A DNA stretch of 64,000 nucleotides from the NCBI RefSeq assembly GCF_000208385.1, contig NC_015436.1, positions 2,108,001-2,172,000 of the forward strand, written 5' to 3'. Shown here piece after piece: positions 7,387-18,863 of this stretch (its first letter is position 1; each line of letters opens with the position of its first letter). This stretch comes from Parasphaerochaeta coccoides DSM 17374. Lineage in GTDB: Bacteria > Spirochaetota > Spirochaetia > Sphaerochaetales > Sphaerochaetaceae. The notes beneath the pieces were generated by a model. The model saw only the letters and a list, made by a program, of their open reading frames with translations. It was not told the origin of the DNA and made no database searches. The position numbers and the translations under genes were made by a program.

Positions 7387-8721
7387 TCATTCCCCCATGG
7401 CAGAGATTTCGTGAGCTGCCTGGTAAATCATGTCCACCAGCAGAGGGATGCCTTCCCTCGGTACACTGCAATACGCCACCCGCAGGACATCTATTGCCAA
7501 GCTGACCGTTCCTGCCCCATAGCTCTCAAGCAACCGGCGGCGGAGAGTTTCCGCGTCCACCTTGCCTACATTGCACTTGAAAGCAAAAAAGTATCCTGAA
7601 TTGAAAGGAAACGGAGTGAGGATGTTGTCATCCACATGTTTTGCCAAGGCATCACGCGCAGCCTGATACCGGCAGCGCATCTCCTCCCTGGCGGCATCTC
7701 TCTCTTGGTCGATTTTCGTCCCATTGGTCAAAGCTTCTATCAGGATTGACTGACCGGGACGCTGGCTGCTGGACACCGAACACCGTATCGCACCAAGAAG
7801 TTTTTGTTCGAGTGCTTCGTAGGCCGGACGGGGCAATCCCTTGCATGCGCAGGTGATGAAGCCGAGACGGAAGCCCCAGAGAAGGTCTTCCTTGGTCGGC
7901 CCGTCGCATTTGATGGCCAGGAGATTTGGGTGAGCATCAGCCAGATGCGCGAAAAGGGAGTTGGTTCCTATGCCGTCTTCATAGAAAAGCCCATGATACG
8001 CGTCATCACAAATCACCAACAAATCCTTCCCTTCCGCAGCGACTGCGGAAAGCGTCCGGGCAATGTCCTCAATCATGCTGTCAGGAGGCGTATAGCCGGT
8101 TGGGTTGTTTGGGAAATTGAGAATCAGGATGACCTTTGAGGCTTCCACACCATGGATTGCCTCCATCATGGCGGGAACATTAAATTCTCCGGCTGGAGAG
8201 AACAGCGGAAAGCTGTGGAGGACGGCTCCATGGCCTGTGCCGAAAATCAGGTCATAGTTGTCCCAACGGAGGGAAGGAACCACCACAGCATCACCTTCAT
8301 CAACGAAAAGCCGCGCGGCAAGGGAAAGGGCATGGGTCAGTGCTGCTGTGACCATGGGAACCGATGCGGGTATGCCATGCAGCGCGGGATTGTTCTTCAG
8401 CAGCCTCTGATGCCAGAGACTGCGCGCCTGGGCATCCCCTCCTGTCGGGGCATAGGAAAAGATGTCCCGTGGTTCATAAACCTCGGTATCGAAAGCATTG
8501 TACATCTCGGAAAGATACATCGGCTGACCATCCTGCATGGCCACCCCGGCGGTCGCGTTGTACCGGTATGCAAGACGTCCGGCCTCTACGCTCTGGAAGA
8601 CTATCCCCCTCGGAAAATAGATGCGTCGTCCAAATGAAGACAGCAGACGGAAGACCACTGTTTCAGAAAGATTTTCATTGAGTTGTCCGGCAATGTCCGT
8701 CATGTTGTTCTCCGCATTCAT
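7387..8721 (-). CDS. PLP-dependent aminotransferase, class I/II
   Basis: A 444-residue fold-type I aminotransferase. Supporting motifs are NFPNNPTGYT (about residue 202), ICDDAYHGL with the Asp that contacts the pyridine nitrogen, and CDGPTKEDLLWGFRLGF. In the last, the lysine is the expected PLP Schiff-base residue and the downstream Arg binds phosphate. The N-terminal 100 residues are less conserved, so the substrate cannot be named. The start codon overlaps the ligA stop as TGATG, with GGGAGG 8 nt before it; a second in-frame ATG six codons later also has a GGAG. It is translationally coupled to ligA. Confidence 0.85.
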   Translation of the reverse strand: MNAENNMTDIAGQLNENLSETVVFRLLSSFGRRIYFPRGIVFQSVEAGRLAYRYNATAGVAMQDGQPMYLSEMYNAFDTEVYEPRDIFSYAPTGGDAQARSLWHQRLLKNNPALHGIPASVPMVTAALTHALSLAARLFVDEGDAVVVPSLRWDNYDLIFGTGHGAVLHSFPLFSPAGEFNVPAMMEAIHGVEASKVILILNFPNNPTGYTPPDSMIEDIARTLSAVAAEGKDLLVICDDAYHGLFYEDGIGTNSLFAHLADAHPNLLAIKCDGPTKEDLLWGFRLGFITCACKGLPRPAYEALEQKLLGAIRCSVSSSQRPGQSILIEALTNGTKIDQERDAAREEMRCRYQAARDALAKHVDDNILTPFPFNSGYFFAFKCNVGKVDAETLRRRLLESYGAGTVSLAIDVLRVAYCSVPREGIPLLVDMIYQAAHEISAMGE

Positions 8722-10871
8722 CAGAACAGCCTCCCTTGAGTCTCAATTTCAGAGTCCTCATTGGCATCCTTCCCGGCATTCTCCCTGATATTCTCTTTAG
8801 CATCAGCGTCCAGCATCCCCAGAAATTCATCCTCGCTGACAATACGCGCACCCGCTTTCTGTGCCTGGGAAAGTTTACTCCCCGCCCCGCCTCCCGCCAG
8901 CAGATGGGTGGTCTTGCCGGTGACGGAGGACGTGACCCGGCCTCCCCGTTTTTTCACCTCGACCATTGCTTTTTCACGTGGGGAGAAATGTTCAAAGGAA
9001 CCGGTGACACACCATGTCTGTCCGGCGAAAATCTGCGGGACATCGGAAACCTGAGAGGCTTCCTCTTCAAAGGAAAGACCTGCTTCACCCAATGCATGGA
9101 TGCGCGCGCGCATCTCTGGCGCGGATAGTGATTCTATCAGGGTCATGGCCATCTTTTCTCCAATCTGGGGGATGGATGTCAACGTGTCCATATCGTGGGT
9201 ATCCACGATGTGAAGAAGCTGCTCCATTGACCGGATGCTGCCTGCATCAAGAAGCTGATCTACCGCCTTCCTGCCGAAATCAGGCAGACCAAGGGCAGAA
9301 AGAACAACACGGAACGGTCGGTTCCGACTGTCCTCCACTCCTGTGACAATGAGGCTGATCTTCTTTTTTCCGAAACCTGGCTGACCATCCAAGACCCTCC
9401 GGTAATCAAGCGTATAGATGTCCGGGATGTCGGACAGGGCATTGATGTTTCTCAGGACAGTGACTGTCTCCGGCCCGAAATTGGCAATGTCCATGCCGTC
9501 CTTGCCTACGAAGAACTGAATCCGTCCTCCTACCTGTGCGGGACAGCCGGAGGCATTGGGACAGAAGGTGTGCGCTCCCCGGATGACCAGGGTCGAGCCA
9601 CAACTGGGACAGATGGCGGGTATGCGCCAGGTGGTATTGCCTTCCTCATTCTTCTCCACGACACGCTCGACCGCAGGGATGACATCACCGCGCTTGGAAA
9701 CTTCCACAGTGTCGCCAATGGCCAGCTCCAGGAGGTCAATATAATCCTGGTTGTGAAGCGTGACGTTGGAAACCACGGAGCCGCCGATGGGAACGCTCCT
9801 GACCCGCGCCATTGGGGTAATCCTTCCGGTTCGGCCTACTTGGACATCTATGTCCTGCACCACTGTCTGGGCGGCGGGTGATTCAAATTTGTATGCAATC
9901 GCCCACCGGGGATGATGTCCTGTATAACCGAAGACGTCCCGGAGCGCAAGGTCGTTGACTTTCACTACCAAACCGTCAATCTCATAAGGAAGATTTCCCC
10001 TCTCCCTGGTGACGCCGGATATGTAGCCGGCAAGGTCGTCGAAGGCGCCGGAAAAGCCTTGTACGCCGGACGCGGACAAAAGAGCCTCGGCTTCCTGTCG
10101 GCCAGATGCGAATACCCCCAGGTGTGGATTGACCCGGAAGCCGAGACGAACCAACGCGGCAAGAAGTTCCACATGGTTGGGATAGAGGGTGGCATCACCT
10201 GCAAAATAAGCCTCGTAGACAAAAATGGTCAGGGGTACACGGGCAGTTTCGCTGCTCTTGATTCTCCTGATTGTTCCCGCGGCAAGGTTGCGAGGATTGG
10301 CATATGGGATTTCCATGGTCTTGTTCAACACGGAAAAGGATTCCTTGGGAAGATACACTTCTCCCCTGACCGCAATGTCCAGCGGTTCGGACAGTCGGAG
10401 AGGGACGGCCGCGATGGTTCTGATGTTGGCAGTTACATCATTGCCTACAGTTCCGTTGCCCCGTGTCACGGCACGGACAAGGATTCCTTTCTCATAGTAG
10501 AGAACCATTGATACGCCGTCGATTTTTTCCTCCACTATGAATGAGAGACCTGTGTCGGCCTTGAGCCCCGCCTTGTTCATCCAGGAGACGATGGCTTCGG
10601 CGCTGTATGCCTTGTCCAAGCTCAGCACGGGGATGGAATGGCGGACTTCGGGGAAATCGGAAGTGAGGTCGCTGCCGACGCGCTGCGTGGGAGAATCAGC
10701 TTCTTTCACATCAGGATGAGCTGCTTCAAGGGCGGCAAGTTCATCCATCAGGGTATCATATTCCTTGTCTGACATACTGGGGCGTCCCAAGACATAATAT
10801 TCATGCTGGGCGTCAAGAAGGATGCGGGAAAGTTCCGCCATGCGTCGTACTGCCGTTTCCTGTGTGTGCAT
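8721..10871 (-). CDS. ligA: NAD-dependent DNA ligase
   Basis: Seals nicks in DNA using NAD+. The 716-residue protein has domain Ia motifs (EYYVLGRPSMSDKEYD), the adenylated Lys in EEKIDG at residue 116, the OB fold, and a four-cysteine zinc site (CPSCGSTLVI...FCPNASGC). Helix-hairpin-helix repeats and a C-terminal BRCT domain (QIFAGQTWCVTGSF) follow. The last 30 residues are an acidic tail beyond the BRCT domain, making it longer than the usual 670. It is the first gene of a two-gene unit with the aminotransferase. Confidence 0.97.
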   Translation of the reverse strand: MHTQETAVRRMAELSRILLDAQHEYYVLGRPSMSDKEYDTLMDELAALEAAHPDVKEADSPTQRVGSDLTSDFPEVRHSIPVLSLDKAYSAEAIVSWMNKAGLKADTGLSFIVEEKIDGVSMVLYYEKGILVRAVTRGNGTVGNDVTANIRTIAAVPLRLSEPLDIAVRGEVYLPKESFSVLNKTMEIPYANPRNLAAGTIRRIKSSETARVPLTIFVYEAYFAGDATLYPNHVELLAALVRLGFRVNPHLGVFASGRQEAEALLSASGVQGFSGAFDDLAGYISGVTRERGNLPYEIDGLVVKVNDLALRDVFGYTGHHPRWAIAYKFESPAAQTVVQDIDVQVGRTGRITPMARVRSVPIGGSVVSNVTLHNQDYIDLLELAIGDTVEVSKRGDVIPAVERVVEKNEEGNTTWRIPAICPSCGSTLVIRGAHTFCPNASGCPAQVGGRIQFFVGKDGMDIANFGPETVTVLRNINALSDIPDIYTLDYRRVLDGQPGFGKKKISLIVTGVEDSRNRPFRVVLSALGLPDFGRKAVDQLLDAGSIRSMEQLLHIVDTHDMDTLTSIPQIGEKMAMTLIESLSAPEMRARIHALGEAGLSFEEEASQVSDVPQIFAGQTWCVTGSFEHFSPREKAMVEVKKRGGRVTSSVTGKTTHLLAGGGAGSKLSQAQKAGARIVSEDEFLGMLDADAKENIRENAGKDANEDSEIETQGRLF

Positions 10872-11144: not shown

Positions 11145-11648
11145 ATGATTTGGTTAAATGCTCTTCTTCATGGTTTGGTATGGTCGGGTATTTGGGTAAT
11201 TGCTCTGTATGTCACTTTCAGGCTCGTACCCCATACCCTGATCCATAATTACCCGAAAGAACTGCAAGAACTCGCTGACATACCCATAAAAAGCAAACGG
11301 CTGACGACATGTGTTTCCTTGTTGGTTTGGGTCGTGATTATCGGATATTATCTGTTTGCGGTTTTATGGACATTTCGCCACAGGACAGACGGCTTCCTGG
11401 ACATTATGGCATTTTCTTTTATGGTTTTCATGGTATGGAACATATGTGACTTGACCATAATGGATTGGTTGCTGTTCTGCACGGTTCAGCCATCTGTCAT
11501 GGTACTTAAAGGCACGAAGGGACACCCCGCATACAAGGATTATATGTTCCACTTCATCGGATTCTTGAAAGGAACCGGGATTGCTGCGATTTTTGCGTTT
11601 GTAATAGGCGGAATATCCTATCTGATCCTGAACTCTTTGGTGTGGTAA
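11145..11648 (+). CDS. Small integral membrane protein, unknown function
   Basis: A 167-residue protein with four predicted membrane segments (about residues 5-26, 54-76, 84-112 and 134-163). It has charged loops including a Tyr-Pro-Lys-Glu stretch after the first helix. GGAGG precedes the ATG. I do not recognise the family. It stands alone between ligA (divergent) and the molybdenum-hydroxylase-like operon, 183 nt before the latter. Its promoter region carries the 18-bp box shared with two surface lipoproteins, which suggests it belongs to the same regulon; that is its most informative property. Confidence 0.8.
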   Translation: MIWLNALLHGLVWSGIWVIALYVTFRLVPHTLIHNYPKELQELADIPIKSKRLTTCVSLLVWVVIIGYYLFAVLWTFRHRTDGFLDIMAFSFMVFMVWNICDLTIMDWLLFCTVQPSVMVLKGTKGHPAYKDYMFHFIGFLKGTGIAAIFAFVIGGISYLILNSLVW

Positions 11649-11831: not shown

Positions 11832-13859
11832 ATGGAGAAAAAAACACAACTCGGCGACGTACCCCAGTACCATGGCATCGTCCTGTGTTCATCTGTATCA
11901 TCCGGTACCATCGTGGACATTTCCATGCCCACACTGCCCTATGGCTGCTTCCTCATTGAACCACGGGACTTCAGCGGAACCAATTCCATCCATATCCTGG
12001 ACACCCGCATGCCGGTACTGACATCATCATCCATCTCCTATGAAGGCCAGCCTGTCCTGGCTCTTTTCGGCCCTGACATTGAAACAGTCAGAAATACAGC
12101 TCGCTCTATCCGGTTTTCCTATTCCCTCCCTCCTGTCCCTGCTCCGGTTTCTGAACAGGAGAAGACAGATGGCGTTTCCAGTGAAGAAGGAACGCCCGGA
12201 CAACGAGAGGCCAACATAGCCGGAAGCCCCTTAACAGCAGCATGGGATAAAGGAGGCAATCCTCCCCCCGAAACGGAAACACAGGTGTTGGAGCAGACCT
12301 ATACATATCCGATACGTCACCCCGCGCGAGCGGAAGAAATAGTAATCCAAGCCATGTATGACCAGAAGGAACTGAACATGCATGTGCCGACCCAGTGGCC
12401 TTTTCATGTGCGGGAATCCATAGCGGAAGCTTTGGGAATCAGCAAACGGAAAATCACGCTCAAGAGACTTCCCTATTTCACTCATCGTGATGCTTATGTC
12501 ATATGGCCGTCCCTGCTTGGCGTCATTGCCGCTGCCGCCGCCATGAAGGTCGGAGGAAAAGTATCCCTCAGCCATGAACCGGCGCACGCCAATCCCCTCA
12601 TGACAATCCACCGCCGCACAGTCTTCGCCTCCAGCACCGGAAAACCCCTGGAAGAAACAGTGACGGCTGACATAGACCAGGGAGCCTTCCCTGTCTTCAC
12701 GCAAGAGATGCAACGTCAGGTCATGGCGGGACTCCTGCCGCCGTACAACCTGCCCAAAGGTTCAGTCATCGTCACCGCGCGTAAAAGCTCATCCCCACCG
12801 GCATCTTTCCATGGAGACCTGGGCTATGCCACGGCGGTATCAAGCACGGCTGTCCATTATAATGCAGTGGCCAGGGCGGCAGGTATTTCTCCCATCGACT
12901 GGAAGATAAAGAACCTGGGAGAATATCCCGTCCGTACAGGCTTCGTCACGTCCGAAAAATTTTCCATCTTGCGGGATATCATCAACGAAACCGCGGAAAA
13001 GTCCGGTTTCCAGCGCAAGCACGCCGCTTTCGAATTACAGAAGCAACGGAAAAACAGATATTCGACATTCCTCAACTACGCCAAAGGAATCGGATGCTCC
13101 GCGGGAGCCGGCATCAGCGGTTTCAGCTCATCCTTCGAACTCGCCGACAAGTTCTCCGTCTCTCTCAGGCTTGAGGAAAAAGACAAGGTTTCCTTCAACA
13201 CGTCCTTTCCTCTCAACGGCCCCAGCGAGAACATCTGGAAAAACATGATTACCCGTGAGCTGGACATTGACCCGGAGTCCATCCTCCCCGTGGATGAAAG
13301 CCGGGAGGAACTGCGGGACAGCGGACCAGCTGTCTTGTCAGCCAACAGCGGGCGTCTGCCGCGGATGTTCAGGAAACTTGCCCATGACATCAGGGAAAGA
13401 CGGTTCAAGGAACCGTTGCCTCTTGAAGCATCAATGACCTTCCGCAGCCCTGCCATGGCATCCCACACAGAATTTGAAGGAACCAGCGGAGCAAGCCTGG
13501 CGATAGAACTGGACATAGACACAATCACCTTGCATCCGGTCGTCCGGCATGTCTGGGCAGTATTCTCTTTCGGATATGTGGATGATGACAAGCTGCTGCG
13601 GACACGCATCCGCCAGACAATAGTGCATACATTGAGGGAAAGCGGCGCCTATTTCGACAATCGTGACGGGAACAAGCCATTTACCATAGACATCACCATC
13701 CACAATACCGAGGATGGCGCTCCCGCGTCGGTAAATTCAATACTCAGGGGATTGGTCATGGGAGCATTTCTGTCGGCGCTCGGACAAGCCCTGCCCTCCG
13801 GCATGAGTACAATCCCCGTCACCAGCGCCCTCATCCTCGACCATATCAGGGAGGAGTGA
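11832..13859 (+). CDS. Molybdopterin-subunit homologue of the xanthine dehydrogenase family, degenerate
   Basis: The 675-residue protein aligns in outline with large subunits of molybdenum hydroxylases: an N-terminal a/b-hammerhead-like region (VLTSSSISYEGQPVLALFG) and then the long molybdopterin-binding domain. The cofactor motifs are altered. The GGGFGGK loop is replaced by PYFTHRDA, and near the C-terminus the GVGEPP segment with the catalytic Glu reads like DGAPAS. Residues 115-150 are a low-complexity insertion. GGGGG precedes the start. The downstream genes are homologues of the iron-sulphur and FAD subunits in overlapping order, so the complex has been kept as a unit. Loss of cofactor residues argues against normal hydroxylase activity; the present function is unknown. 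Confidence 0.75.
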   Translation: MEKKTQLGDVPQYHGIVLCSSVSSGTIVDISMPTLPYGCFLIEPRDFSGTNSIHILDTRMPVLTSSSISYEGQPVLALFGPDIETVRNTARSIRFSYSLPPVPAPVSEQEKTDGVSSEEGTPGQREANIAGSPLTAAWDKGGNPPPETETQVLEQTYTYPIRHPARAEEIVIQAMYDQKELNMHVPTQWPFHVRESIAEALGISKRKITLKRLPYFTHRDAYVIWPSLLGVIAAAAAMKVGGKVSLSHEPAHANPLMTIHRRTVFASSTGKPLEETVTADIDQGAFPVFTQEMQRQVMAGLLPPYNLPKGSVIVTARKSSSPPASFHGDLGYATAVSSTAVHYNAVARAAGISPIDWKIKNLGEYPVRTGFVTSEKFSILRDIINETAEKSGFQRKHAAFELQKQRKNRYSTFLNYAKGIGCSAGAGISGFSSSFELADKFSVSLRLEEKDKVSFNTSFPLNGPSENIWKNMITRELDIDPESILPVDESREELRDSGPAVLSANSGRLPRMFRKLAHDIRERRFKEPLPLEASMTFRSPAMASHTEFEGTSGASLAIELDIDTITLHPVVRHVWAVFSFGYVDDDKLLRTRIRQTIVHTLRESGAYFDNRDGNKPFTIDITIHNTEDGAPASVNSILRGLVMGAFLSALGQALPSGMSTIPVTSALILDHIREE

Positions 13860-13861
13860 CC

Positions 13862-14410
13862 GTGAAACTTGATTTCCAGCTCGACAACAAGAAGATATCC
13901 GTGAACGTCAATGCGGACAAGCCACTTTCCCTCATCCTTGCCGAGGACATACCCAAGGACTTTTCCTGGAATCCCTTCTTTGGCTCGCTGACACGGGAAC
14001 CCGTCTTCATTGACGATGAACTTGTCCTGCCCGCCCAGATGCCTGCTTTCCGTGTACGGGGTACCACGATTCGTTCGTACAACGGATTCCGCAAGACCCG
14101 CCTCTGCCGGGATATTGAACGCGCCTACGCGTTCCATGAATGTTATCCGGATGGCGGAAGCTATGCCGCCATCACCATGATCCTTGAGTCGATGATTACC
14201 GACATAGACGCATCGAAAACTCCCGCCCGGATCTCCACGCCGGAGGAAAACCCCAACCGTCCGACGGCAGAACCCACAACCCTTGACATGGTGACCATAG
14301 AGCAGGACCTTGACGACATCGCATGCACCACAATGGATGTCGGTCAACTCATCCTCATTGCCCGCACGGCAGCGGAATACAGGAGACGCAGGAATGTACG
14401 AAGGAATTAA
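13862..14410 (+). CDS. [2Fe-2S]-subunit homologue lacking cluster cysteines
   Basis: The 182-residue protein begins like the small subunit of molybdenum hydroxylases (KLDFQLDNKKISVNVNADKP, then LSLILAEDI) and keeps the second-domain frame YAFHECYPDGGSYAAITMIL, which corresponds to the usual CGFCTPG region. The family needs eight cysteines for two [2Fe-2S] clusters; only three are present and none forms the CxxC patterns, so neither cluster can bind normally. The region after residue 125 is unlike the family. GTG at 13862 has AGGAG 6 nt upstream; GTG at 13856 overlaps the previous stop but is too close to the ribosome-binding site. The flanking genes are the other two subunit homologues. The homology rests on position and a weak motif fit. 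Confidence 0.65.
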   Translation: MKLDFQLDNKKISVNVNADKPLSLILAEDIPKDFSWNPFFGSLTREPVFIDDELVLPAQMPAFRVRGTTIRSYNGFRKTRLCRDIERAYAFHECYPDGGSYAAITMILESMITDIDASKTPARISTPEENPNRPTAEPTTLDMVTIEQDLDDIACTTMDVGQLILIARTAAEYRRRRNVRRN

Positions 14411-15278
14411 GTCTCCCACAATCCATAGCCCCCGTACCATTGGGGAAGCCCTCTCTATCCTGAACCGTACTCCTGATGCGCGTCTGTGGGCAGGCGGTAC
14501 GTATATCATGAGCAGACCGGATGCTTATCCTGGCAAGGACGCCAGTGCCATCATCGATCTGGCGGGGATTCCTGAATTGAAGAAAATCACGAGGAACGAC
14601 CGTTTTGTGGAAATTGGAGCCATGGTCACCGCATCTCAACTGACCAATACCGGCAAGCTGTTGCTTTCCGACCTGATGCTGGATACCCTCAAGTCCACGG
14701 CCTCCCCACTGTACCGGAGACAGCTTACCATTGGCGGAACCCTGTGTACTCCGGACATCCGCCTTTCCTTGCCGACGACCTTGGCAGTCCTTGAATCAGC
14801 CGCGGAAGTCCGTTACCTCCAACGTTCCCGCATCATCACCCGCTGGATTCCCATAGCCCGGCTCTATGGCAAGAACGGCGCTCTCCTGATGCCGCCAAAA
14901 AGCATCCTGTCCAAAATACGCATCAGCCTGGACATGCCTGGTTTCCAACGGTTCCGGGTCATTGATCACCCAATGCTTGCGCCGCGTGATTCCGTGCTGT
15001 TCGCTTTCCAATGCCAGGGAACCCAAGGAACCCTGTCCCGTGCGCGTTTCTGCTTCACCTATCCGACCGCCGGTTTCCACCAGAGCCGTGAGATGGAAGC
15101 CCTGCTCAGCGGACAGGATCTGCCCCTGTCACCGGACAAAGTACGGAAGTTTTCCTCACAGCTTGTCATGGAGATAGCCAGGATGCATCCTGGGGTGACT
15201 CCTCTCCAGCTTGAGAGAAGCCGCCGTCTTTTCGCGGAAGTCCTGCATGACATTGATGTCATGGCAATGGAAAAATAA
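14394..15278 (+). CDS. FAD-subunit homologue of molybdenum hydroxylases
   Basis: The 294-residue protein resembles the FAD-binding (CoxM/XdhB) subunit: HSPRTIGEALSILN, then LWAGGTYIM in place of the usual AGGTDL, and RRQLTIGGTLCTPD matching the family IRNVATIGGN segment. The C-terminal half has the CO_deh_flav-like pattern. Some FAD-contacting residues differ, so binding is uncertain. The start at 14394 follows AGGAG and overlaps the previous gene by 17 nt, so the three genes form one operon ending 72 nt before dnaE. An alternative upstream ATG has no ribosome-binding site. Confidence 0.8.
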   Translation: MYEGIKSPTIHSPRTIGEALSILNRTPDARLWAGGTYIMSRPDAYPGKDASAIIDLAGIPELKKITRNDRFVEIGAMVTASQLTNTGKLLLSDLMLDTLKSTASPLYRRQLTIGGTLCTPDIRLSLPTTLAVLESAAEVRYLQRSRIITRWIPIARLYGKNGALLMPPKSILSKIRISLDMPGFQRFRVIDHPMLAPRDSVLFAFQCQGTQGTLSRARFCFTYPTAGFHQSREMEALLSGQDLPLSPDKVRKFSSQLVMEIARMHPGVTPLQLERSRRLFAEVLHDIDVMAMEK

Positions 15279-15350
15279 CCGGAAGAAAATCCCGTAGCCC
15301 ATCACCAAAGCGTGGGAATGTGGTATGATGACTCGACAGGAGAGCGACAG

Positions 15351-18300
15351 ATGTCCGGATTCGTACACCTTCACAACCATACTGATTACTCCCTGCTCGA
15401 TGGCGCGGGTTCCATACCAAAATACATAGCCAAGGCAAAGGAACTGGGCATGAATGCCCTGGCAATCACCGACCACGGCAATATGTTCGGAGCCCACAAG
15501 TTCTACAAGGCATGCAAGGCAGCGGACATCAAGCCTATCATCGGCTGTGAGTTCTATGTCGCTCCTGAAAGCCATACCTTGCGCGAAGGCGTGGAAGGAA
15601 AGCCGCGTGCCTATCATCTGATTCTCCTTGCCATGAACGAGAAAGGCTATCACAATCTGATGGAACTGAACTCCATCTCCTATGTCGAAGGTTTCTACTA
15701 CAAGCCGCGTATCGATCATGAGCTGATAGAACAGCACAATGAGGGCGTCCTTTGCCTGTCCGCCTGCCTTGGCGGGGAAATTGCGTCCCTTCTGAAGGAC
15801 AATAGGTATGAGGACGCCAAGAAAGCCGCCCTGTGGCATGCATCAGTCTTTGACGGGGGACGCTATTACCTGGAAATCCAGGATCATGGCTTGCCCGAAC
15901 AGAAGACGGTGAACCAGGCTCTTGCCCGTCTTTCCACGGAAACCGGCATTCCCCTTGTAGCGACCAATGATATCCACTACATCAACAAAAGCGATGCCAA
16001 CGCCCACGACATCCTCCTGTGCATTGGCATGGGCAAGAAGAAGAATGAAGCCGACAGGATGCGTTTCCACTCGGCTGAATACTACATGAAAAGCGCTGAG
16101 GAAATGGAAAAACAGTTCCTCTGGTGTCCGCAAGCCGTGGAAAATACAGTGAAGATTGCAGATTTATGCAATCTGGAGATACATTTTCCCGGACCGCGCC
16201 TGCCCCGCTTCCGTGTCCCCAAAGGCTTCACGGATGACTCTTACCTCCGGCATCTTTCCCATGAAGGACTTGCCCGCCGGTATGCGGAAGTGACGCCTGA
16301 CTTGGAGAAAAGACTGGATTACGAGCTTGATGTCATCATCCAGATGGGTTTCCAGGGCTATTTCCTCATTGTCCGGGATTACATCTACTGGGCAAAGCAG
16401 CGTGACATCCCGGTAGGGCCTGGCCGTGGTTCCGGCGCAGGCTCGCTGGTGGCATACTGCACGGAAATCACTGATGTCGATCCCATCAAATATAACCTGC
16501 TGTTCGAAAGGTTCCTCAATCCTGAAAGAAAGACAATGCCTGACTTCGACATTGACTTCTGCTTTGAACACCGCCAGGAAGTCATAGAATATGTGACGGA
16601 GCATTACGGTGAGGATCATGTCGCCCAGATAGCCACCTTCGGAACCCTCAAAGCCAAGGCTGTGGTAAAGGATGTCGCCCGTGTACTGGACATTCCCTTC
16701 GAGGAGTCCAACCGCATAGCCAAGATGATTCCCGACGACCCCAAGATGACCTTGAAGAAAGCCCTTGAACAGTCCCCTGAGCTGAAACAGGTTGCTGATG
16801 CCGGAGGCATCTACGGAGAATTGTTCGACGCCGCCTTCCGCCTGGAAGGATTGAACCGACACACATCGACCCATGCGGCGGGCGTAGTTATTGGTGAAAA
16901 AAAGCTGCTCACCTATGTTCCGCTCTACCGTGATGCCAAGACTGGCGCAATCTCCACCCAGTTCACCATGGATCAGTTGGAGGAAAACGGCCTGGTCAAG
17001 ATGGACTTGCTCGGACTGAAGACGCTGACCCTCATCAAGCATACTGTTGATTTGGTTCACAAGACAAACCCCGGATTTTCCATTGAGGACATCAACGAAG
17101 AAGATGAAAAAACATTTGACATGCTCCGTCGTGGAGACAGCGCCTGCGTCTTCCAGTTTGAATCGACCGGCATGCAGAAGATTCTCCGTGATGCCCTTCC
17201 GAACAGCATAGAAGACTTGGTGGCCTTGAACGCCCTGTACAGGCCGGGGCCCATGGACTACATCCCCCAATTCGTTGAAAGCAAGAACGGCAGGATGCCG
17301 ATTACCTACGCTCATCCGGACTTGGAGGAAACGCTCAAGACGACCTACGGCGTCATCGTCTACCAGGAACAGGTCATGAAAGTCGCCCAAATCATTGGGG
17401 GATACACGCTGGGAGCCGCTGATATCCTGCGCCGCATCATGAGCAAGAAGAAAGCGGAGGAGCTGGCTGCCCAAGAAGTGAAGTTCGTTGAGGGAGCCTT
17501 GGCGAAAGGCTATCAGGAGAAGCTCGCACGCTACATCTTCAAGATGCTGGAACCTTTTGCCGGTTATGGCTTCAACAAGTCCCACGCGGTGGCTTATTCC
17601 GTCATAGCCTATCAGACAGCGTTCCTCAAGGCGAACTATCCCGCTGAATTTATGGCGGCGAACCTGACCAATGAGATTAACAATCCTGACAAGTTCTCGG
17701 AATACCTGAGAGAAGCCAAGCATATGGGAATAGAGGTACTTCCTCCTTCCATCAATTACTCGGAAAGGCAATTCAATGCCGTTGAAGGCAAGATTGTCTA
17801 TGGTCTGGCAGGCATCAAGAATGTCGGGGAAGGCGTGGCCGACCTGATTATCCGGGAACGTAACGAACACGGCCCCTATGAATCTTTCATAGACTTCCTT
17901 GTCAGGGTCGATTCGCGCGCAATGAATTCCAAGCTCCTTGAATCCTTGATAAAGGCGGGAACCTTCGACAGCATGGAGGAAAACCGTCCTACGCTGATAG
18001 AAAACATGGAAGCGGCGGTCATCTACGCCCAGAAACAGAAGGAAAGCAAGGAAAGCGGGCAGAGCTCCCTGTTCGAAGGCGATGACATTGATTCCTTCAC
18101 CATGACACGCCATCCTGATTGGGAGATGCGTGAGAAACTTGAGATTGAGAAAGCCCTGCTGGGTTTTTACATATCCGGACATCCCCTGGATCTGTACCGC
18201 GATGCCTGGAAACGCAGCGTCCTCGTGGATTTCTCCCGTCCTGAACGTTTTCCCCGCAACCGGCAGATTTCCCTGGTGGCCATGATCACTGACATCAGGA

Positions 18301-18863
18301 CGTTGATGACCAAGAAGCAGACTATGATGGGCTTCCTGGAATTGGTCGATTTCAGCGGTACATTGGAAGCTACCTGTTTCCCCAATGCATGGGCGGCTGT
18401 CTCCGGGAAAATCGAAAAGGACGGCATCTATGGTTTCCAGGGAAAGTTCGAGTACAATCCGAAAAGGGAGTCCATTGGATTCATCGTGGATGCTGTCTGC
18501 GACCCGTACAGCCTGGATCCGGTCGCCCTGAAAGAAGCTCATATCCAGATTGAGAAGCACATGTGTTCCGATGACATGATCGAGACTCTCAAGGATGTCA
18601 TTGTGGAAAACCTGGGACGGGGAAGATGCCGTACAATCTTCCACATTGAGGACTCTGCCGCCGCGCTGACCGCAGCGGCTCATAACGCGGAGGAAGCCGG
18701 ATTCGAGGCCAGCGAAGCTCCGGAGGATTCTGAGGAGACACTCTCCCTCCCGGCTCCGCAGACTGTCATTGCCGCAGGGTATGAGTTTTCCGTAGATTAT
18801 TCAGAGAAGCTCATTGAAGACTTGAAGAAAATCCCCGGAGTGACCGGTGTCTGGTTTGACTAG
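15351..18863 (+). CDS. dnaE: DNA polymerase III alpha subunit
   Basis: Replicative polymerase catalytic subunit, 1170 residues as usual for DnaE1. The N-terminal PHP domain starts HLHNHTDYSLLDG (about residue 6) with ITDHGNMFG. The active-site aspartates lie in PDFDIDF at about residue 397-403 and GPGRGSGAGSLVAYC precedes them. The tau/beta-binding and OB-fold (residues 980-1080) regions follow. There is a variable acidic stretch near residue 1110. AGGAG sits 8 nt before the ATG at 15351; an earlier in-frame ATG lacks one. The YggT-like gene begins 8 nt after the stop, so they are cotranscribed. Confidence 0.97.
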   Translation: MSGFVHLHNHTDYSLLDGAGSIPKYIAKAKELGMNALAITDHGNMFGAHKFYKACKAADIKPIIGCEFYVAPESHTLREGVEGKPRAYHLILLAMNEKGYHNLMELNSISYVEGFYYKPRIDHELIEQHNEGVLCLSACLGGEIASLLKDNRYEDAKKAALWHASVFDGGRYYLEIQDHGLPEQKTVNQALARLSTETGIPLVATNDIHYINKSDANAHDILLCIGMGKKKNEADRMRFHSAEYYMKSAEEMEKQFLWCPQAVENTVKIADLCNLEIHFPGPRLPRFRVPKGFTDDSYLRHLSHEGLARRYAEVTPDLEKRLDYELDVIIQMGFQGYFLIVRDYIYWAKQRDIPVGPGRGSGAGSLVAYCTEITDVDPIKYNLLFERFLNPERKTMPDFDIDFCFEHRQEVIEYVTEHYGEDHVAQIATFGTLKAKAVVKDVARVLDIPFEESNRIAKMIPDDPKMTLKKALEQSPELKQVADAGGIYGELFDAAFRLEGLNRHTSTHAAGVVIGEKKLLTYVPLYRDAKTGAISTQFTMDQLEENGLVKMDLLGLKTLTLIKHTVDLVHKTNPGFSIEDINEEDEKTFDMLRRGDSACVFQFESTGMQKILRDALPNSIEDLVALNALYRPGPMDYIPQFVESKNGRMPITYAHPDLEETLKTTYGVIVYQEQVMKVAQIIGGYTLGAADILRRIMSKKKAEELAAQEVKFVEGALAKGYQEKLARYIFKMLEPFAGYGFNKSHAVAYSVIAYQTAFLKANYPAEFMAANLTNEINNPDKFSEYLREAKHMGIEVLPPSINYSERQFNAVEGKIVYGLAGIKNVGEGVADLIIRERNEHGPYESFIDFLVRVDSRAMNSKLLESLIKAGTFDSMEENRPTLIENMEAAVIYAQKQKESKESGQSSLFEGDDIDSFTMTRHPDWEMREKLEIEKALLGFYISGHPLDLYRDAWKRSVLVDFSRPERFPRNRQISLVAMITDIRTLMTKKQTMMGFLELVDFSGTLEATCFPNAWAAVSGKIEKDGIYGFQGKFEYNPKRESIGFIVDAVCDPYSLDPVALKEAHIQIEKHMCSDDMIETLKDVIVENLGRGRCRTIFHIEDSAAALTAAAHNAEEAGFEASEAPEDSEETLSLPAPQTVIAAGYEFSVDYSEKLIEDLKKIPGVTGVWFD

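Follow-up and report, generated by a model that had tools for sequence, protein, structure and literature searches.

The molybdenum hydroxylases of the xanthine dehydrogenase/xanthine oxidase (XDH/XO) family, including bovine xanthine oxidase, CO dehydrogenase (CoxLSM) and nicotinate dehydrogenase, consist of a large, an Fe-S and an FAD subunit that are homologous across the family and share its folds, and are characterized by a Moco loop with active-site Arg and Glu residues, two [2Fe-2S] clusters held by eight cysteines, glycine-rich FAD loops in the medium subunit, and Moco biosynthesis in the host. A molybdoenzyme-fold subunit that stayed in its complex after Moco was generally lost is found in respiratory complex I (NuoG/Nqo3); NuoG differs from an XDH-like trio in belonging to another fold family, in keeping its Fe-S clusters, and in having a known redox role. 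A survey of molybdenum use identified 292 bacteria (nitrogenase-free group) that have molybdoproteins without a complete Moco pathway, and reported no sequence feature distinguishing these orphan molybdoproteins (PMC6147048).

Here, a three-gene locus was analyzed in a 64,000-nucleotide stretch (the window; contig NC_015436.1, positions 2,108,001 to 2,172,000) of the genome of Parasphaerochaeta coccoides DSM 17374, a single contig of 2,227,296 bp. The trio resembles the three-subunit XDH/XO family in its subunit set, full-length folds and FAD-loop signature; unlike that family, it lacks the Moco loop and the cluster ligands, key active-site residues are changed, and the genome has no Moco pathway. 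Like the orphans of PMC6147048, the spirochaete trio consists of molybdoprotein homologs in genomes without Moco synthesis; unlike them, it belongs to a subfamily with a clear, class-wide sequence feature, namely the lost Moco loop. Part of the orphan-molybdoprotein question thereby receives a concrete answer defined by sequence. Within the library covered, a literature search on the trio genes in spirochaetes (Treponema, Sphaerochaeta) found nothing specific. The reading to which we give about an even chance is that the trio is an ancient pseudo-xanthine-dehydrogenase, whose hydroxylase activity was lost in an ancestor of a Spirochaetia subfamily and which purifying selection has since maintained for some other role.

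The trio and its cofactor sites

The trio lies between ligA (8721..10871, minus strand), a conserved divergent neighbor in Sphaerochaetaceae, and dnaE (15312..18863, plus strand), a conserved downstream neighbor across the class, as determined from neighbor clusters. All three frames are intact on the plus strand, in the order large subunit (11832..13859), Fe-S subunit (13862..14410) and FAD subunit (14394..15278). The preliminary description of the locus had reported intact subunit homologs in overlapping order; frames and order stand, and the overlap is confined to the Fe-S/FAD pair (14394-14410). The first possible GTG of the Fe-S ORF is at 13856 in the ORF list, and alignment with relatives places the start at GTG 13862, 2 bases past the large-subunit stop. 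A 167-aa hydrophobic ORF (11145-11648, plus strand) between ligA and the trio has no Pfam match and is not a conserved neighbor in relatives.

The 675-aa large subunit has the MoCoBD fold: it matches Pfam MoCoBD_1 (E 1.3e-11), and its AF2 model (pLDDT 90.8; built from 90 aligned sequences) aligns with xanthine oxidase in VIA-align over 617 residues (Z 35, rmsd 3.5), a modeled likeness that is far beyond chance. The Moco loop GGxFGGK is replaced by FTHRDAY (aligned window segment YFTHRDA), confirming the reported absence of GGGFGGK. By alignment, Gly stands at the Arg912-like position and Ser at the Glu1261-like position, the latter in agreement with the suspected loss of the catalytic Glu, while the Gln767-like residue is kept within a conserved PTQWP; residue numbers were mapped via alignments and follow the bovine numbering.

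For the Fe-S subunit, three of the eight cluster cysteines had been thought present. The protein does contain three cysteines, of which C157 alone occupies a ligand position; 7 of 8 [2Fe-2S] ligands are gone, leaving one rather than three. No Pfam model is matched by this subunit. It nevertheless aligns over its full length with relatives that carry clusters, with the beta-grasp and helical domain retained, and its predicted fold (AF2, pLDDT 85, residues 43-45 of the former cluster-I loop being among the low-confidence stretches) finds its best Foldseek match in Fe-S subunits of the xanthine oxidase family. The structure predictions indicate that a complete xanthine-dehydrogenase fold is kept in the trio.

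The 294-aa FAD subunit matches Pfam FAD_binding_5 (E 6.5e-23) and keeps both glycine-rich FAD loops (WAGGT and TIGG), as do nearly all of the 66 relatives compared. The earlier impression of altered loops therefore applies to their flavin-ring side, which is changed, and not to the glycine-rich loops. FAD binding by this subunit is plausible from its sequence, and FAD is probably retained in the complex. The term "cofactor-less", previously applied to the operon, thus fits the Moco and cluster sites, both of which are gone, and is overstated with respect to FAD.

A check for molybdopterin biosynthesis genes, suggested in the preliminary description, agreed with the loss of the Moco site: MoaA, MoaC and MoeA are absent from the P. 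coccoides genome in a search whose controls were positive in 11 of 14 genomes. Across the family of this species, MoeA was found in 0 of 37 genomes, and MoaA and MoaC in two only (G006 and G010). A second XDH elsewhere in the P. coccoides genome was ruled out as a source of redox function, since no other Fer2_2 or MoCoBD gene was found there.

Cofactor loss across the Spirochaetia

The large subunit is present in all 37 genomes of the family and in most other sampled families of the class. GGxFGGK occurs in 0 of 86 non-redundant large subunits of this Spirochaetia subfamily versus 10 of 10 canonical ones, and in the tree the subfamily forms one clade apart from the canonical enzymes (support 0.88), to which the window trio, with the same gene order, belongs. 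The Moco-site loss described for the P. coccoides operon is real, and it is not special to this operon. In the same 86 sequences, the loop and the Arg912-like, Q1040-like and usually also the Glu1261-like positions are changed; 62 of them retain the Gln767-like residue. The clade includes a 1,139,633-bp genome (G114), which by its size fits Treponema pallidum and in which MoaC was not found. Among plasmid relatives, the only match was a single weak one to an ordinary XDH.

The cluster ligands have a different history. All eight cysteines are in register in 84 of 104 aligned Fe-S sequences, and most of the remainder only shift CxC to xCC (Treponema-type). This xCC, a shifted spacing in the second half of the cluster-II ligands, is seen in Treponema-type Fe-S subunits at L149, L154, L155, L160-L163, L165, L166, L168, L170 and L172-L174. 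A subfamily-wide absence of every cofactor was accordingly rejected. Real ligand loss is confined to five lineages: 7 of 8 ligands are lost in the window and in L138 (the two lineages lacking both clusters), cluster I in L133/G114, and cluster II in L073 and L075. The five losses look independent because four of these lineages adjoin Cys-complete sisters in the tree and L138 branches alone. The sequence comparison thus places Moco-loop loss as ancient and common to Spirochaetia, a class in which the cofactor is mostly not synthesized, and Fe-S loss as lineage-specific. Such lineages would be living intermediates of a multi-cofactor enzyme whose complex persists as the cofactors drop out in succession.

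Selection and possible roles of the complex

Selection on an intact complex, as the preliminary description had proposed, is upheld by conservation across the class, by the absence of broken relatives, by low dN/dS, and by evolutionary rates that are normal for the P. coccoides large and FAD subunits. No broken frames occur among about 110 loci, and dN/dS is about 0.01-0.2 for all three genes (60 close pairs within the subfamily); the sequences nearest to the window trio are ~41% identical, and no species close enough for an own-lineage dN/dS was found. The terminal branch of the P. coccoides Fe-S subunit is 1.58 versus a median of 0.29, compared with 0.94 versus 0.60 for the large subunit, 0.55 versus 0.39 for the FAD subunit, 0.44 versus 0.25 for dnaE, and 0.50 versus 0.43 for ligA. 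Acceleration in this species is limited to the Fe-S subunit, with the large and FAD subunits keeping pace with dnaE and ligA, and in Fe-S acceleration the first and second places among 74 genomes go to the two lineages that lack both clusters. The loss of 7 of 8 ligands from a strongly accelerated subunit could be taken to mean that the P. coccoides trio is losing its function and that its intact frames are merely a lag. Such decay in progress is improbable, however, given the housekeeping-like rates of the other two subunits, the about 1150 codons without a stop, and the contrast within the Fe-S subunit, where 19 of the 26 most conserved non-ligand positions survive but only 1 of the 8 ligands does (Fisher p 0.004). 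Neither broken frames nor relaxation in all parts, as expected of a decaying operon, is seen; what occurred is a specific release of the cluster sites, and simple decay was rejected as the main reading on the basis of the intact frames and evolutionary rates. The contrary signs named in advance were likewise absent: no relatives were frameshifted, and no Moco or Fe-S sites were preserved.

The eight cysteines and FAD loops of most members argue, at the sequence level, that the usual function is redox. A cluster-based redox role in the Cys-complete majority is a serious rival: in most species, electrons would travel among FAD, the pair of [2Fe-2S] clusters and some new site or partner, and P. 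coccoides would have an FAD-only short version. The upstream operon partner is, moreover, a DegT-family aminotransferase, and some members of that family work with flavin/[2Fe-2S] reductases. This account, possible but less likely than the reading favored here, has to explain why the complex persisted in five lineages that separately lost one or both clusters, and it cannot apply unchanged in the two lineages without any cluster site; the best match of the aminotransferase is also PseC and not the RfbH dehydrase type. A hydroxylase that still works with scavenged Moco, or with another metal cofactor held by a different loop, is conceivable in that canonical GGAFGGK enzymes persist in some genomes of the family that lack Moco genes and that the Gln767-like residue is commonly kept, yet it is highly improbable with the loop and the Arg912-like, Q1040-like and usually Glu1261-like positions all changed.

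Under the pseudo-xanthine-dehydrogenase reading, Moco binding and hydroxylase activity would have been lost in the ancestor of the Spirochaetia subfamily, and the heterotrimer would then have been kept under purifying selection for another role. The three proteins may still assemble and bind FAD, and the former Mo domain, with its conserved PTQWP beside the vanished loop, may now bind a ligand or partner; a flavoprotein that binds a ligand or acts as a scaffold, using the frame of a dead molybdenum hydroxylase, is favored over an electron-transfer enzyme. For the P. coccoides complex itself, a non-redox function is likely from the sequence evidence, a view strengthened by the repeated independent Fe-S losses elsewhere. 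Its extension to the entire class, as a pseudo-molybdoenzyme complex with a non-redox function (ligand-binding scaffold or regulator) that shed Moco, then one cluster, then both, is more tentative and falls somewhat short of even chances. If true, a non-redox pseudo-molybdoenzyme complex is kept even in the 1.14-Mb genome G114, which fits the syphilis spirochaete. The retention of the trio in this strongly reduced pathogen genome makes it a worthwhile target. Annotation of the trio genes as "xanthine dehydrogenase" or "quinoline oxidoreductase" would mislead.

Gene neighborhood and orphan molybdoenzymes

Outside Sphaerochaetaceae, most families in the class have the trio directly 3' of an aminotransferase gene (PseC-like) and a dehydratase gene (PseB/CapD-like), often with dnaE next. 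Nearly overlapping genes for dehydratase, aminotransferase and Moco-less trio form an operon at L133-L143, L071-L075 and L077-L082, and this arrangement is present in G114. This apparently ancestral context suggests a link to sugar-nucleotide chemistry, which would not be obligatory, and hints at surface or flagellar glycan synthesis. As a universal explanation, the glycan-operon link is weakened: in Sphaerochaetaceae the trio sits between ligA and dnaE and a close dehydratase orthologue is missing, and G047 has a close dehydratase orthologue without the trio.

A conserved neighbor in Sphaerochaetaceae without Moco genes encodes a small ModE N-terminal-like HTH protein lacking a molybdate-binding domain (L053:12080-12460 and L055:2074-2436); it was not found in the P. 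coccoides genome in a search run without a positive control. At L083, L086-L089, L091-L093 and L101 (genomes G005, G014, G016, G052, G028, G039, G021, G032 and G031), there is a second XDH trio of canonical appearance that carries GGAFGGKEHFPD, in each case in genomes without MoeA, MoaA and MoaC; these are orphan molybdoenzymes with an intact Moco motif. In genome G041, in-frame stops interrupt the dehydratase gene (G041:C6:19577-21035) that lies upstream of an intact trio.
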